From Variovorax paradoxus (GTDB lineage Bacteria; Pseudomonadota; Gammaproteobacteria; Burkholderiales; Burkholderiaceae_C): a stretch of 64,000 bases of DNA. The stretch lies in contig NZ_JAUSXG010000001.1 of assembly GCF_030815855.1 (NCBI RefSeq), positions 4,216,001 to 4,280,000 of the forward strand. The letters run 5' to 3'. This document shows positions 57,310 to 64,000 of this stretch, in pieces. Numbering within the stretch: position 1 is the stretch's first letter; each line of letters opens with the position of its first letter. The notes beneath the pieces were generated by a model. That model was not told where the DNA came from. It saw only the letters and a list, made by a program, of their open reading frames with translations, and did no database searches. The position numbers and the translations under genes are program-made.

Positions 57310-58674
57310 ATGAGCAAAAAAGTCTTTATCAAAACCTTCGGCTGCCAGATGAACGAGTACGACTCGGACAAGATGGCCGATGTGCTGAACGCCGCGCAGG
57401 GCTACGAGCCCACCCAGAACGTGGACGAGGCCGACCTGATCCTGTTCAACACCTGTTCGGTGCGCGAAAAAGCCCAGGAAAAGGTGTTCTCCGACCTCGG
57501 CCGCGTGAAGCACCTGAAGGCCAAGGGCGTGAAGATCGGCGTGGGCGGCTGCGTGGCGAGCCAGGAAGGCGCGGCCATCATTGCGCGCGCGCCCTACGTC
57601 GACATCGTGTTCGGCCCGCAGACGCTGCACCGCCTGCCCGACATGCTGAACGACCGCGAGCGGCTGGACCGCCCGCAGGTGGACATCAGCTTTCCCGAGA
57701 TCGAGAAGTTCGACCACCTGCCGCCGGCGCGCGTCGAGGGCGTGACCGCCTTCGTGTCGATCATGGAAGGCTGCTCCAAATACTGCAGCTACTGCGTGGT
57801 GCCCTACACCCGCGGCGAGGAAGTGAACCGCCCGCTCGACGACGTGCTGGTGGAAATTGCCGGCCTGGCCGACCAGGGCGTGCGCGAGGTCACGCTGCTG
57901 GGGCAGAACGTGAACGCCTACCGCGGCAAGATGGGCGACACGGCCGAGATTGCCGACTTCGCACTGCTCATCGAATACGTCGCGGAGATTCCGGGCATCG
58001 AGCGCATCCGCTACACCACGAGCCACCCGAACGAATTCACGCCGCGGCTCATCGAGGCCTACGCCAAGGTGCCGCAGCTCGTGAGCCACCTGCACCTGCC
58101 CGTGCAGCACGGCAGCGACCGCATCCTGATGGCCATGAAACGCGGCTACACCGCGATGGAATACAAGAGCACGGTCCGCAAGCTGCGCGCCATCCGCCCC
58201 GAGCTGGCCCTGAGCAGCGACTTCATCGTCGGCTTCCCCGGCGAGACCGATGAAGACTTCGCCAAGATGATGAAGCTGATCGACGACTGCCAGTTCGACA
58301 ACAGCTTCAGCTTCATCTTCAGCCCGCGCCCCGGCACGCCCGCCGCGGCACTGCAAGACGATACGCCGCACGAGGTGAAGCTAGCGCGCCTGCAGACGCT
58401 GCAACGCGTGATCGACGGCAACGTGCGCCGCTTCGGCGATGCGCTGGTCGGCACCACGCAGCGCGTGCTGGTCGAGGGGGCCTCCCGCAAGGACGCGAAC
58501 GAGCTGATGGGCCGCACCGCGTGCAATCGCGTCGTCAACTTCGAAGGCGACGCACGGCTGGTCGGGCAGATGGCCGATCTGCGCATCACGCGCTCGCTCG
58601 CGTACACGCTGCGCGGCGAAGTGGCTACACGCGAATCGTCGACGGCGCCGGTGACCGCCGCGCTCGCCGCCTGA
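57310..58674 (+). CDS. miaB: tRNA-2-methylthio-N6-dimethylallyladenosine synthase
   Basis: 454 aa from ATG 57310 ([20 protein letters not shown]). N-terminal UPF0004 cluster cysteines ([33 protein letters not shown]), radical-SAM motif [16 protein letters not shown] (CxxxCxxC), [14 protein letters not shown], and a C-terminal TRAM domain. Adds the 2-methylthio group to A37 of tRNAs. Its TGA shares the A of the next gene's ATG (TGATG at 58672-58676), so the kinase glrK is coupled behind it. Confidence 0.96.
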
Positions 58675-60101
58675 TGGCGAAGCGGCCATCGACGCGGGGC
58701 TCGTTCCAGCAGCTCCTCCTTTTCGCGTTTCTGCTGATTACCGCCCTGCTCGTGGGCGTGGTGTTGCGCTCGGTATTCCAGTACGACGCGCTCATGACCC
58801 AGAGCCGCGATGCGGCCGCCCGCGCGCTGCGGCTCTCGGGCGCGGCCCAGTCGCTGGCCGAGCGCAGTGCGGCCATGGAGCGTGCCGGACGCCAGTCGCT
58901 GGTGCTGAACGACGCCGTGCTGCGGCGCCGCTTCGACGACGCAGCCCGCGAAGCGCACCAGGTGCTCGAACGGCTCGAGATGAACGGCCTCGCGCCCGTG
59001 GGCATGGAGGCGTGGCGCGCCCAGCTCGGCGTGATCGAAGGCCTGATGAGCGGCAGCGCCGACAGCGCTCTTTCGCGCGAAAGCAGCATGGCAATGCAGT
59101 TCCGCGAACTCGATTCGTTGAACACCAACCTCGCGCAGCAGGCCCAGTTCCTGATCGAGACGCAGAACGACGCCCTGGCCAAGCGCATCGAGAACGCACG
59201 CCGCCGCCTGATGCGCGAAGTGGTGGCGGCGAGCGTGCTGGCGGTGTCGCTGGCGCTGGCTTTCGGCATCTGGCTCGCGCGCCCGTTCAAGCGGCTCGAG
59301 CACGCCATCGTCGGCCTGGGGCAGAACCGGCTCGACGAGCCGATCGACATCCGCGGCCCGGCCGACATCCGGCGCGTGTCGCAGCAGCTCGAATGGCTGC
59401 GTCTGCGCCTGACCGAACTGGACGCCGACAAGGCGCGCTTTCTGCGCCACGTCTCGCACGAACTGAAAACGCCGCTGGCCGCATTGAGGGAAGGCGTTTC
59501 GCTGCTCGAAGACGGCGTGACGGGCCCGCTGAATCCGGCGCAGCTGGAGGTGACGCAAATCCTGAACCAGAACACCGTGTCGCTGCAAGGCCAGATCGAG
59601 GCGCTGCTGCGCTTCAATGCCGCGGCTTTCGAGGCGCGCGAACTGCGCCGCGAACGCACCGAGCTGCTGCCGCTGATCGAAGAGCAGATCGAGGCGCAGC
59701 GCCTGCAGTGGCAGGCCCACGGCCTGCGCGTGCGCGCCGAGGGCGAGCCGCTCACGGTCACGGTCGACCGGACCAAGCTCGGCACCGCCGTGGCCAACCT
59801 GCTGTCCAACGCCATTCGCTACTCGGCGCGCGGCGGGGTGATCACCCTCGTGGTGTCCAGCACGCCCGAGTCGGCATGCATCGATGTCAATGACGCCGGC
59901 CCGGGTATTGCCGAAGGCGACCGTGACCGGATTTTCGAGCCCTTCTATCGGGGCGAACGCCAGCCTGAGCACGCGGTCAAAGGGACCGGCATCGGTCTTT
60001 CGATCGTGCAGGAGTACATTGCTGCCCATGGGGGCCGCATCACCCTGCAGCCGGGCGGACCTGGTGCGCGCTTTCGCATCGAACTGCCGCGCACGGCCTG
60101 A
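58674..60101 (+). CDS. glrK: GlrK/QseE-like sensor histidine kinase
   Basis: 475 aa from ATG 58674. Two transmembrane helices (LLLFAFLLITALLVGVVLRS near residue 14; VVAASVLAVSLALAFGIWLA near residue 184) enclose a helical periplasmic sensor domain. Then HAMP, the H-box FLRHVSHELKTPLAALREGV, N-box VANLLSNAIRYSARGG, and G boxes DAGPGI and GTGIGLSIVQEY. Gene order kinase-lipoprotein-sigma54 regulator is that of enterobacterial glrK-qseG-glrR, and H-box details agree. Coupled to miaB (TGATG). Confidence 0.88.
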   Translation: MAKRPSTRGSFQQLLLFAFLLITALLVGVVLRSVFQYDALMTQSRDAAARALRLSGAAQSLAERSAAMERAGRQSLVLNDAVLRRRFDDAAREAHQVLERLEMNGLAPVGMEAWRAQLGVIEGLMSGSADSALSRESSMAMQFRELDSLNTNLAQQAQFLIETQNDALAKRIENARRRLMREVVAASVLAVSLALAFGIWLARPFKRLEHAIVGLGQNRLDEPIDIRGPADIRRVSQQLEWLRLRLTELDADKARFLRHVSHELKTPLAALREGVSLLEDGVTGPLNPAQLEVTQILNQNTVSLQGQIEALLRFNAAAFEARELRRERTELLPLIEEQIEAQRLQWQAHGLRVRAEGEPLTVTVDRTKLGTAVANLLSNAIRYSARGGVITLVVSSTPESACIDVNDAGPGIAEGDRDRIFEPFYRGERQPEHAVKGTGIGLSIVQEYIAAHGGRITLQPGGPGARFRIELPRTA

Positions 60102-60189: not shown

Positions 60190-60846
60190 ATGTTTTTTCC
60201 GCTCGTCCGCAGTTCGACCTTCTCCGGGGCGATGGCCGTGCCTTTCGCCCTGCTGCTGGCCGCCTGCGCGACGCAGCCCGAGCCCCCGGCCGAGGCCAAC
60301 GCCCTGCCGCCGCCACCGCCAGCGGTTCCGCGCGTGATGCCGGTCGAGGCCGAGCCCAATGCACCCGCCACGCAGCCGGCATCGCTCTTCACGCTGATGA
60401 CCCAAGGGCCGGTCGCAGCCATGCTGGCGTATGCCGACAAGGTCCGCCCGCTCGGCGGTGCCGAGCTGAATGCGGAAATCACCCGGGCCGGCGACCCCGG
60501 CGATTCGCCCAGCGCGCAGATGCAGCTCGCACTGCTGCTCGCCCAGACGCGTGCGCCGGCCGACCTGGCGCGCGCCCTGGGCCTGATGCAGCGCGTGATG
60601 TCCAACCCGTCGCCCGAGGCCCAGCCGCTGCAGCCGCTCGCGCGTGCACTCGCTGCGCGCTACGTCGAGCAGCGCCGCGTGGAGGACGACCGCGACAAGC
60701 AGGCGCAGCAGGTGCGCGAAAGCCAGCGCCGCATCGACCAGCTCAATGACCGCATCGAAGCGCTGCGCGCCATCGAGCGCAGCTTTGCGCGCCCGAACGC
60801 TCCCGCGCCGACGACCTTGCCCCCACCCAACGGCGCCAAGCCTTAG
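60190..60846 (+). CDS. qseG: QseG-like outer-membrane lipoprotein
   Basis: 218 aa from ATG 60190. Lipobox ALLLAAC with lipidated Cys26, a Pro-rich linker, and a helical domain ending in a coiled coil (VRESQRRIDQLNDRIEALRA). Sequence identity to enterobacterial QseG cannot be judged by eye, but position, lipobox and C-terminal coiled coil fit. In E. coli QseG helps activate the GlrK kinase from the outer membrane. The name rests mainly on gene order. Confidence 0.75.
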   Translation: MFFPLVRSSTFSGAMAVPFALLLAACATQPEPPAEANALPPPPPAVPRVMPVEAEPNAPATQPASLFTLMTQGPVAAMLAYADKVRPLGGAELNAEITRAGDPGDSPSAQMQLALLLAQTRAPADLARALGLMQRVMSNPSPEAQPLQPLARALAARYVEQRRVEDDRDKQAQQVRESQRRIDQLNDRIEALRAIERSFARPNAPAPTTLPPPNGAKP

Positions 60847-60884: not shown

Positions 60885-62273
<1,389 letters not shown>

Positions 62274-62287
62274 CGACGGCCCTAAGC

Positions 62288-62345
62288 TGTTGATTTAAAA
62301 AGACATTTTTCACCAGCCTTCCAGGCTTGTCGGGATTCGGCGACA
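62288..62345. promoter_or_regulatory. Two GlrR-type activator sites (TGTC-N10-GACA)
   Basis: Site 2 (62328-62345) is TGTCGGGATTCGGCGACA, a perfect TGTC-N10-GACA extended by T and A on either side. Site 1 (62288-62305) is TGTT-N10-GACA, one mismatch. They are 40 bp apart. TGTC-N10-GACA is the motif described for GlrR upstream of the enterobacterial glmY promoter. They lie about 121-178 bp upstream of the predicted transcription start, the usual place for sigma54 enhancer sites. Confidence 0.75.
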
Positions 62346-62407
62346 AAATGAGGGGTTTCAGGGCCTTCCAACCGGTTCCAACCTCGAAAACCACGTCCAG
62401 CTCACCC

Positions 62408-62420
62408 TAAGTGGTTGATC
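62408..62420 (-). promoter_or_regulatory. IHF-like site
   Basis: On the minus strand GATCAACCACTTA matches the IHF consensus WATCARNNNNTTR at every defined position except the first. It lies between the GlrR-type sites and the -24/-12 promoter, where IHF commonly bends DNA to bring an activator to sigma54 polymerase. Confidence 0.45.
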
Positions 62421-62439
62421 TGAAAGCGTTTTTCCAGCC

Positions 62440-62454
62440 TGGCACAGGGTTTGC
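62440..62454 (+). promoter_or_regulatory. Sigma54 (RpoN) -24/-12 promoter
   Basis: TGGCACAGGGTTTGC has the invariant GG (62441-62442) and GC (62453-62454) in correct register with TGGCAC-N5-TTGC. Predicted transcription start is about 62466. It points toward the small ORF at 62467 and opgH at 62678. Together with the upstream sites it forms a complete enhancer-dependent promoter. Confidence 0.8.
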
Positions 62455-62466
62455 CCCTGTACAGGC

Positions 62467-62670
62467 ATGACAGCACTCAACAGCCCATCTTTCGCACTGC
62501 GCCAGCAGCGCGACGGCCTGCGTCAAAAGCAGTTTTCCCCCTCGCGGCCCCGTGCCGCCGGGCATTCGATGGCCGCGCTCGCAAGCGCAGGCGGCGCCGA
62601 ACCGGATTGCGTGATCAAGCGCTTTCCTGCCATTGGCGACACCCCTTCCCTCGACAAGCAACGTTGGTAA
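62467..62670 (+). CDS. Possible small protein or non-coding leader ahead of opgH
   Basis: An ATG-initiated frame of 67 residues (MTALNSPSFALRQQRDGLRQ...) starts essentially at the predicted sigma54 start site, so it would be leaderless, and no Shine-Dalgarno is seen. GC at third codon positions looks lower than in neighbouring genes. It may be a small basic protein, a leader peptide, the 5' untranslated region of opgH, or the body of a small RNA. It ends 7 bp before the opgH ATG. Confidence 0.35.
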   Translation: MTALNSPSFALRQQRDGLRQKQFSPSRPRAAGHSMAALASAGGAEPDCVIKRFPAIGDTPSLDKQRW

Positions 62671-62677
62671 ATCACAC

Positions 62678-64000
62678 ATGAAGCCGAACGACTTCTCGCA
62701 ACTGAACGTGCTGACCGAAGCCGACTTTTCGCACCGCAGCCCGGTGCGCGAAGAACGCCACCCCAATTCCGTGACCGCTCCGCCGGTCAACCGCGGCTCC
62801 ATGGTGCCCCGCCCCTGGCGCGGCTTCTGGAACAGCATCGGCACTGCCCTGCTGGTCAAGCTCGGCGCCGGCGGCAAGCCGGAAAGCGAAACCGCCGAAG
62901 CCGGCGCACAGGTCAAGCAGCCGTGGCAGCGCGCCGCGGCCCGCCGCCGCAACGCCTTCATGCTGCTCACCGTGCTGAGCACCGTGATCGCCTCCACGCT
63001 GTTTGCCGGCGTGCAACCCGACTACGACAACGTCTGGCTCGAATACGGCCAGATCGGCCTGTACGGCCTGCTGTCGGGCTGGGTCGTCACCGGCTTCGTC
63101 ACGGCACTGATGGGCTTCTACGTCTCGGTGCGCGGTGACAAGCACGCGCTCTCGGTCAAGCAGGTGGCCCACCACCCGATGAACCCCGAAGCACGCACCG
63201 CGATCATCATGCCGATCTGCAACGAAGACGTTGCCACGGTGTTCGCCGGCCTGCGCGCCACTTGCGAATCGGTCGCGGCCACCGGCCACGCCAGGCAGTT
63301 CGACGTGTTCGTGCTGTCCGACAGCTACACGCCCGAAACCGCCGCCGCCGAGCGCGCCGCCTGGGAAGACCTTCGCGCCGCGCTGGCCGACAGCCCGAAC
63401 CAGCCGCAGGTCGAGGTGTACTACCGCCTGCGCACCCGCCGCACGCACCGCAAGGCCGGCAACGTGGCCGACTTCTGCCGCCGCTGGGGCAAGGACTACC
63501 GCTACATGGTCGTGCTCGACGCCGACTCCGTGATGAGCGGCGACTGCCTGACCTCGATGGTCAAGCTGATGGAAGCCAACCCGACCGCCGGCATCATCCA
63601 GACCGCCACGCAGGCCATCGGCCACGTGACGCTGCATGCCCGCGCACAGCAATTCGCTTCCCGCGTGACGGGCCGCCTGTTCACGCTGGGCATGCAGTTC
63701 TGGCAACTGGGCGAATCGCACTACTGGGGCCACAACGCGATCATCCGCGTCGAGCCCTTCATGAAGCACTGCGCGCTGGCGCCCATCAAGGGCACCGGCG
63801 GCATGTCGGGCGGCATCATGTCGCACGACTTCGTCGAAGCCGCGCTGATGCGCCGCGCGGGCTACAACGTGTGGCTTTGCGCCGACCTGGTCGGCAGCTA
63901 CGAACAGCAACCGCCAGACCTGCTGGCCGAACTGCAGCGCGACCGCCGCTGGTGCCAGGGCAACCTGCAGAACGCCCGCCTGATGGCCGAGCCCGGCCTC
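62678..64000 (+). CDS. opgH: Glucan biosynthesis glucosyltransferase OpgH (cut by window end)
   Basis: 441 codons present from ATG 62678. N-terminal cytoplasmic region, transmembrane helices (about residues 92-110 and 124-148), then the GT2 glycosyltransferase domain: RTAIIMPICNEDVATVFAGL, the metal-binding DAD in MVVLDADSVMSGDCL, KGTGGMSGGIMSHDFVEAAL, and QRDRRWCQGNLQ with the QxxRW motif. OpgH polymerises glucose from UDP-glucose into osmoregulated periplasmic glucans. No opgG lies upstream. Remainder is outside the window. Confidence 0.95.
   Translation, partial: MKPNDFSQLNVLTEADFSHRSPVREERHPNSVTAPPVNRGSMVPRPWRGFWNSIGTALLVKLGAGGKPESETAEAGAQVKQPWQRAAARRRNAFMLLTVLSTVIASTLFAGVQPDYDNVWLEYGQIGLYGLLSGWVVTGFVTALMGFYVSVRGDKHALSVKQVAHHPMNPEARTAIIMPICNEDVATVFAGLRATCESVAATGHARQFDVFVLSDSYTPETAAAERAAWEDLRAALADSPNQPQVEVYYRLRTRRTHRKAGNVADFCRRWGKDYRYMVVLDADSVMSGDCLTSMVKLMEANPTAGIIQTATQAIGHVTLHARAQQFASRVTGRLFTLGMQFWQLGESHYWGHNAIIRVEPFMKHCALAPIKGTGGMSGGIMSHDFVEAALMRRAGYNVWLCADLVGSYEQQPPDLLAELQRDRRWCQGNLQNARLMAEPGL

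Follow-up and report, generated by a model that had tools for sequence, protein, structure and literature searches.

The locus analyzed here lies at the 3' end of the window (by which we mean the whole stretch of 64,000 nucleotides, positions 4216001-4280000 of a host genome of 5.95 Mb that consists of a single contig) and includes, in this order, genes for a sensor kinase, a lipoprotein and a glrR-like regulator, a 404-nt gap, and opgH (Table 1). Judging by OpgH, the closest named relatives are Variovorax sp., V. beijingensis, V. paradoxus and others. The start codon of the kinase gene was chosen by eye, and the open frame extends further upstream; searches of Pfam and NCBIfam with the QseG-like lipoprotein yielded no family match. 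For the regulator, the top NCBIfam model is GlrR (NF011695), with 619.8 bits compared to 419 bits for the runner-up family; because this score is below the curated NF011695 cut-off of 763, we denote the protein "GlrR-like". A PDB search with the regulator returned only other sigma54 activators and receivers among the best 60 of 286 matches. OpgH was compared to NF003960 using its N-terminal 440 residues, the full open frame in the genome being 692 codons long. The host genome also encompasses two rpoN (sigma54) genes, at C1:3172460 and C1:4832733.

Table 1. Genes and regulatory elements of the glrR-opgH locus, in window coordinates
Feature	Position	Strand	Evidence or remark
Sensor kinase gene, GlrK/QseE-like	58674..60101	+	Pfam HisKA and HATPase_c; precedes the lipoprotein and glrR-like genes
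QseG-like lipoprotein gene	60190..60846	+	Lipobox LLAAC (by eye) and position
glrR-like response regulator/sigma54 activator gene	60885..62273	+	Receiver and sigma54-activation domains (Pfam); GlrR is the top NCBIfam model
GlrR-type site 1, TGTCGCCGACTAGCGACG	62261..62278	+	Spans the glrR stop codon; one mismatch; conserved second site
IHF-type site 1, TAAGCTGTTGATT	62283..62295	+	Match to YAANNNNTTGATW with at most one mismatch
GlrR-type site 2, TGTCGGGATTCGGCGACA	62328..62345	+	Perfect TGTC-N10-GACA
IHF-type site 2, TAAGTGGTTGATC	62408..62420	+	Final base deviates from the consensus
sigma54 -24/-12 element, TGGCACAGGGTTTGC	62440..62454	+	TGGCAC-N5-TTGC; conserved in relatives
Predicted transcription start	62466..62467	+	From the -12 spacing; at the ATG or 1 nt before it
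67-aa protein gene (P0001)	62467..62670	+	Basic product; conserved core; database relatives; dN/dS
opgH/mdoH glucosyltransferase gene	62678..64000	+	Runs past the window end; NF003960, 858.8 bits (cut-off 829)

The initial annotation of this DNA described a complete GlrR-dependent sigma54 promoter in the gap between glrR and opgH. Both the perfect GlrR-type site and the consensus promoter that it reported are indeed present, the latter being the sole exact match to TGGCAC-N5-TTGC within the window. Of the two binding sites that it paired, the other one was misplaced: the conserved partner is TGTCGCCGACTAGCGACG, which contains one mismatch in the window and is perfect in relatives such as L031, and the two GlrR-type sites are 67 bp apart. 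The supposedly near-perfect GlrR site, placed at 62288-62305, shares part of its sequence with the first IHF-type site; among 82 loci of the small-ORF clade (3 of the 85 have no IHF anchor and were left out), TGTC-N10-GACA is matched there with at most one mismatch in a single one, the window's own; we accordingly rejected this candidate. A single IHF-like site had been listed as well; an IHF-type match is present, but there are two of these when the motif that we take to be the IHF consensus, YAANNNNTTGATW, is scored with at most one mismatch allowed. Thus, upstream of the -24/-12 element, we find both TGTN12ACA sites and IHF-type sites, the combination by which a GlrR/QseF-dependent sigma54 promoter is recognized. 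The perfect TGTC-N10-GACA motif occurs twice in the window against 0.75 occurrences expected, and 16 of 100 shuffles reach two occurrences, so that TGTCGGGATTCGGCGACA, taken alone, is no evidence. No sigma70-like promoter was detected in 62200-62760. A terminator-like site was not found after glrR either (62271-62439), so that read-through into opgH, which could give a leadered mRNA, is possible.

The case for the promoter comes from comparative analysis. Loci were collected by OpgH searches of 61 genomes of the genus and 150 of the family, from the 80 top-ranking loci of named genomes, by a GlrR search of the same 150-genome family sample, and from additional regions; the promoter lies 100-260 nt after glrR in 143 distinct regions, a count that leaves the order-level loci aside. 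These regions were divided by whether the promoter is followed first by the small ORF described below, by a long ORF or by neither. A perfect GlrR site is present in 84 of the 85 small-ORF-first regions, 43 of the 47 long-ORF-first regions and 4 of the 11 remaining ones; if up to one mismatch is allowed in either motif, at least two GlrR sites are found in 85/85, 39/47 and 10/11 regions, and at least two IHF-type sites in 78/85, 37/47 and 2/11 regions, respectively. The corresponding means after letter shuffling (20 rounds, all 143 regions) are 0.45 for a perfect site, 0.2 for two GlrR sites and 0.3 for two IHF-type sites; since the 143 regions share ancestry, they do not represent 143 independent trials. 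The scan of relatives for the site combined with the -24/-12 boxes, suggested in the initial annotation, was performed with the composite pattern TGTC-N10-GACA-N70-100-TGGCA-N6-TTGC, the spacing of which was derived from the window. This pattern is conserved in 37 of the 41 Variovorax genomes, compared to none of the 41 for the reversed pattern; it occurs once in the host genome and twice in four of the 41 (G006, G007, G020 and G028). The genomes without it are G012 (62% complete), G018 (89%), G022 (88%) and the complete G019, in which the -12 box is altered (L073). Single TGTCG-N8-CGACA sites are uninformative genome-wide, with 22 occurrences compared to 18 for the reversed control. The promoter module is real and conserved, and it is probably functional.

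The presence of GlrR (E at most 1e-140) and that of OpgH are associated in the family: 34 of the 150 genomes encode both proteins, 4 GlrR only, 11 OpgH only and 101 neither (Fisher p 9e-20, shared ancestry not being corrected for). Among 178 distinct GlrR-relative loci, which include the results of an order-level GlrR search (30 of its matches became loci), the first gene is the small ORF in 85, opgG in 45 (for example, in Hydrogenophaga, Acidovorax and Polaromonas), opgH itself in 23 (among them Acidovorax sp. SUPP3334 and Paracidovorax valerianellae) and another gene in 20, the remaining 5 having no promoter after glrR by the score applied. In two genomes without a promoter after glrR, G179, where the opg genes are about 50 kb from glrR, and G149, where a 1.8-kb stretch of other sequence separates opgG from the preceding glrR, opgG is equipped with a -24/-12 element and a pair of perfect GlrR sites that are spaced by 67-68 bp. 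The -24/-12 element of G149 has AGGCAC instead of TGGCAC, with an ATG 12 nt on; an IHF-type match is present at opgG of G179, and one-mismatch IHF-type matches can be discerned by eye in G149. Hence, the module accompanies opgG and is not simply an attachment to the end of the glrR gene. The idea of a betaproteobacterial GlrK/QseG/GlrR branch acting on glucan genes, already voiced for this DNA, gains from the conservation of the sites, their spacing and the target over many genera, from the GlrR/OpgH co-occurrence, and from the opgG modules apart from glrR in these two genomes. Control of the present operon by GlrR and sigma54 appears likely on these comparative grounds, as does regulation of the opg genes by GlrR. 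Elsewhere in the host genome, there is one MdoG-family gene (C1:1495525-1496994, L115), the product of which has a twin-arginine-like N-terminus as judged by eye, suggesting OpgD; the 4.5-kb locus of this gene is devoid of perfect GlrR sites.

Counted from the C of the -12 box, an ATG follows at 11-14 nt in 39 of the 45 opgG-first loci, 19 of the 23 opgH-first loci and 85 of the 85 small-ORF-first loci, although the last class is partly defined by the presence of that ATG; the distance is exactly 12 nt in 31, 12 and 84 loci, respectively. Independent of this classification, 84 of 133 loci contain a tblastn match to the small ORF, with the ATG at 12 nt (83 loci) or 13 nt (1 locus). The ATG opens a frame of more than 300 codons in all 39 opgG-first loci, and the printed starts resemble signal peptides. 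Among the 19 opgH-first ATGs, 17 likewise open frames of this length, and each of the 11 checked is in register with OpgH; those in L033 and L037 open only 29 and 21 codons. When another gene comes first, an ATG occurs at 11-14 nt in one of 20 loci and opens only 14 codons. Ten of the 68 opg-first loci (L049, L054, L055, L056, L092, L214, L218, L253, L263 and L273) have no ATG at this distance, and neither has the opgG module of G179, so that leaderlessness is not universal. The host genome contains 22 consensus -24/-12 sites, many of which are unlikely to be promoters; 5 of these have an ATG at 11-14 nt and 2, including the one analyzed here, at 12 nt. Another consensus -24/-12 element of the host genome (C1:5857811-5857825, L247) is followed 12 nt on by GGCATG, which opens a short frame.

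The boxes of sigma54 promoters are located at -24 and -12 relative to the start of transcription (excerpt of PMC4842269), and the mRNA should therefore begin at the AUG or one base before it. In the window, the initial annotation had named 62466 as the expected start without mentioning the adjoining ATG at 62467. Given this promoter-ATG geometry, a conserved leaderless sigma54 mRNA is, in our assessment, probable. What is new here is the placement of the start codon where sigma54 transcription should begin, across opgG, opgH and the small ORF.

The 200-nt stretch between the promoter and opgH, which had been assigned either to a small RNA or to a peptide, is almost certainly a conserved gene for a 67-aa protein, recognized here for the first time, in line with the second of these options. 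Of 5.8 billion proteins searched, 94 are related to this protein at E at most 1e-3; the names given for them are those of hypothetical proteins, and where an organism is named, it is Variovorax or Comamonadaceae. The protein has no match in Pfam or NCBIfam. It is basic (pI 10.8), its best-conserved core in alignments is V-x-K-R-[FLM]-P-[AST]-I-G-[DE], and its AlphaFold2 model is of low confidence (mean pLDDT 62.7, pTM 0.16). For 85 distinct small-ORF genes, the median dN/dS is 0.39 in frame compared to 1.15 and 1.34 in the other frames. The uncorrected synonymous divergence of the small ORF (0.36) is close to that of glrR (0.355) and opgH (0.378), and thus gives no hint that an RNA element overlaps the ORF. 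In Rfam, the sole match is an animal-virus microRNA family at chance level (E 0.44), with GlmY and GlmZ not matched, and the fold stability of the stretch is not unusual (z -0.23); the small RNA was therefore discarded as a candidate, the Rfam, folding and synonymous-constraint analyses all being empty. The small ORF ends 7 nt ahead of the opgH ATG in the window. For 13 clade members compared in this respect, the distance is 7-16 nt in 12 and -11 in the thirteenth (L158), for which the opgH start is an estimated one. The genome G125 (L199/L284; 2.5 Mb, 92% complete) retains glrR and, behind it, a pair of perfect GlrR sites, a promoter with TGGCCC and the small ORF at 39% identity, and OpgH and MdoG yielded no match when sought genome-wide and in the 1.46 kb after glrR; in the stretch that follows these 1.46 kb, nothing recognizable was found by eye. 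The retention of the ORF without a detectable opgG or opgH favours a role besides the loading of ribosomes for opgH. One idea, which comes from comparison by eye, is that the small ORF may have been derived from the start of opgG.

In more distant families of Burkholderiales, the promoter is located at the same spot after glrR, and the gene behind it encodes a BON-domain protein that starts much like a signal peptide. Of the 20 loci where some other gene comes first, 17 contain a frame that has a ribosome-site-like stretch, and 10 of the 17 were compared to Pfam; nine of the ten BON products score above the Pfam cut-off and the tenth (L283) is 0.2 bits under it. These ten loci (L248, L258, L260, L261, L265, L269, L270, L271, L276 and L283) have an ordinary leader, with the start codon 33-89 nt after the -12 C and behind a Shine-Dalgarno-like stretch that was itself a condition of the search. 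In L280 and L281, the first gene resembles, by eye, one for an EF-hand protein. The occurrence of BON genes behind the same promoter suggests that the GlrR home promoter is old and its cargo variable.

An inverted repeat, ACAGGG-TTTGC-CCCTGT, surrounds the -12 box in the window (62444-62460), and at homologous promoters in some relatives (e.g. L094 and L031) other letters still pair. By a statistic that ignores relatedness, the mean stem is 4.72 in 36 small-ORF sequences compared to 4.32 (sd 0.09) for a partner-swap null, and 3.87 in 47 other sequences compared to 3.65 (sd 0.05), where at least one of 500 null rounds reached 3.91; the signal of covariation is weak.

We propose that phosphorylated GlrR would bind both TGTC-N10-GACA sites, IHF would bend the DNA between these sites and the promoter, and GlrR would then activate the sigma54 polymerase at TGGCAC-N5-TTGC. 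This promoter would be the home target of the GlrK-QseG-GlrR system in Burkholderiales, driving, in this branch, periplasmic glucan synthesis through opgG or opgH. Transcription would begin at the first start codon or one base before it, which would make the mRNA leaderless. It is a protein of 66-70 residues that is encoded from this start codon onwards in the Variovorax/Xenophilus/Pseudacidovorax clade, and the start of opgH a few bases past the small-ORF stop makes translational coupling probable. The order, spacing and conservation of the sites, the coding constraint and the opgG module away from glrR, on which this scheme is built, are apparent from the sequences themselves.

The same promoter and control could also give rise to an mRNA with a leader, transcribed from one or more upstream starts, with the position of the ATG otherwise caused. 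The opg-first loci devoid of the geometry, the lack of a terminator-like site after glrR and the weak sigma70 promoter that overlaps the sigma54 one at E. coli glmY (excerpt of PMC6075780) are all compatible with such a start; against it stand the lack of a sigma70-like match around the promoter, the ATG distance that stays constant while the first gene varies among opgG, opgH and the small ORF, and the lack of an ATG at that distance in 19 of the 20 loci that begin with some other gene, and we regard an upstream start as unlikely. A further possibility is that the sites serve autoregulation of glrR or another activator, the opg genes being mere neighbours, as could be surmised from the overlap of the first site with the glrR stop codon and from the BON genes that occupy the same spot in other Burkholderiales families. 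Given that the promoter is directed away from glrR, that in G179 and G149 the module precedes opgG without directly following glrR, and that the composite pattern is unique in the host genome, with an extra copy in few Variovorax, this explanation appears improbable.

With respect to the stretch before opgH, the E. coli precedent of a small RNA, GlmY, as the nearby GlrR target (excerpt of PMC6075780) makes a GlmY-like RNA gene with an incidental small ORF conceivable; however, dN/dS is below 1 in one frame only, synonymous sites show no extra RNA constraint, neither the fold nor Rfam points to an RNA, and no terminator-like site was found, so that we deem it highly improbable. A lesser role for the ORF, in which its translation would serve only to bring ribosomes to opgH and the product would be functionless, would fit the short distance between its stop and the opgH ATG. 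This reading is at odds with the conservation of residues along the protein, with the dN/dS value and with the persistence of sites, promoter and ORF in G125, and we hold it to be rather unlikely, albeit less so than an upstream start. A further-reaching reading, namely, that the GlrK-QseG-GlrR system of Burkholderiales runs glucan synthesis via a sigma54 promoter selected for leaderless mRNA, the AUG distance being held as the first gene swaps among opgG, opgH and a new small protein that would itself be an effector of GlrR, is offered as a tentative one that is less likely than not. If it is true, leaderless output would let these envelope genes be translated when ordinary Shine-Dalgarno initiation is restricted.

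The GlrR system is known chiefly for glmY and rpoE in enterobacteria, and to our knowledge, neither the signals that govern the synthesis of osmoregulated periplasmic glucans nor its regulation are well defined. A conserved GlrR-opg link is a plausible envelope output for the GlrR system in Burkholderiales, and one that can be put to the test within a single harmless genus. The loci with the fixed promoter-AUG geometry form a natural series in which leaderless sigma54 transcripts could be studied, and the 67-aa protein is a new candidate envelope regulator. Searches of open-licence full texts found no report of links between GlrR and opgH, QseF and periplasmic glucans, QseG and Comamonadaceae, or opgH and Variovorax, and no report of such a promoter for GlrR with the BON domain or betaproteobacteria; control of opgGH by sigma54 or a response regulator did not appear among the matches listed. 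One account places GlrK-GlrR in betaproteobacteria, with opg absent from the excerpt available (PMC8895600).

The locus shares with the opgGH (mdoGH) operon the enzymes for osmoregulated periplasmic glucans (OpgH by NCBIfam, OpgG by Pfam MdoG) and differs from it in that opgG may be absent and a small gene precedes opgH; we know of no description of sigma54 or GlrR control of opgGH. In E. coli, according to excerpts of PMC6075780, QseF and IHF drive sigma54 promoters through TGTN12ACA sites, with glmY and rpoE as targets. The enterobacterial GlrK/QseG/GlrR (QseE/QseG/QseF)-glmY system resembles the present one in that genes for a kinase, a lipoprotein (in the present case, a putative one) and a regulator are found together and in that TGTN12ACA sites, IHF and a sigma54 promoter, here predicted ones, belong to a target beside the regulator operon (excerpts of PMC6075780). 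Unlike in enterobacteria, the target here comes after glrR and not before qseE, the products are glucan enzymes or a small protein instead of a small RNA, and the start codon is placed where transcription is predicted to begin. GlrR/QseF-sigma54 control of E. coli rpoE likewise concerns an envelope-related protein-coding target, although the gene is a different one (excerpt of PMC6075780). Leaderless mRNAs have been reported in rhizobia, 171 in Sinorhizobium meliloti and 192, exactly at the start codon, in Bradyrhizobium japonicum (excerpts of PMC3616915 and PMC4842269), and there, as predicted here, transcription starts at the first base of the AUG. The Bradyrhizobium leaderless mRNAs have an extended -10 box upstream (excerpt of PMC4842269), whereas the element found here is of the sigma54 type and its geometry is conserved across genera.
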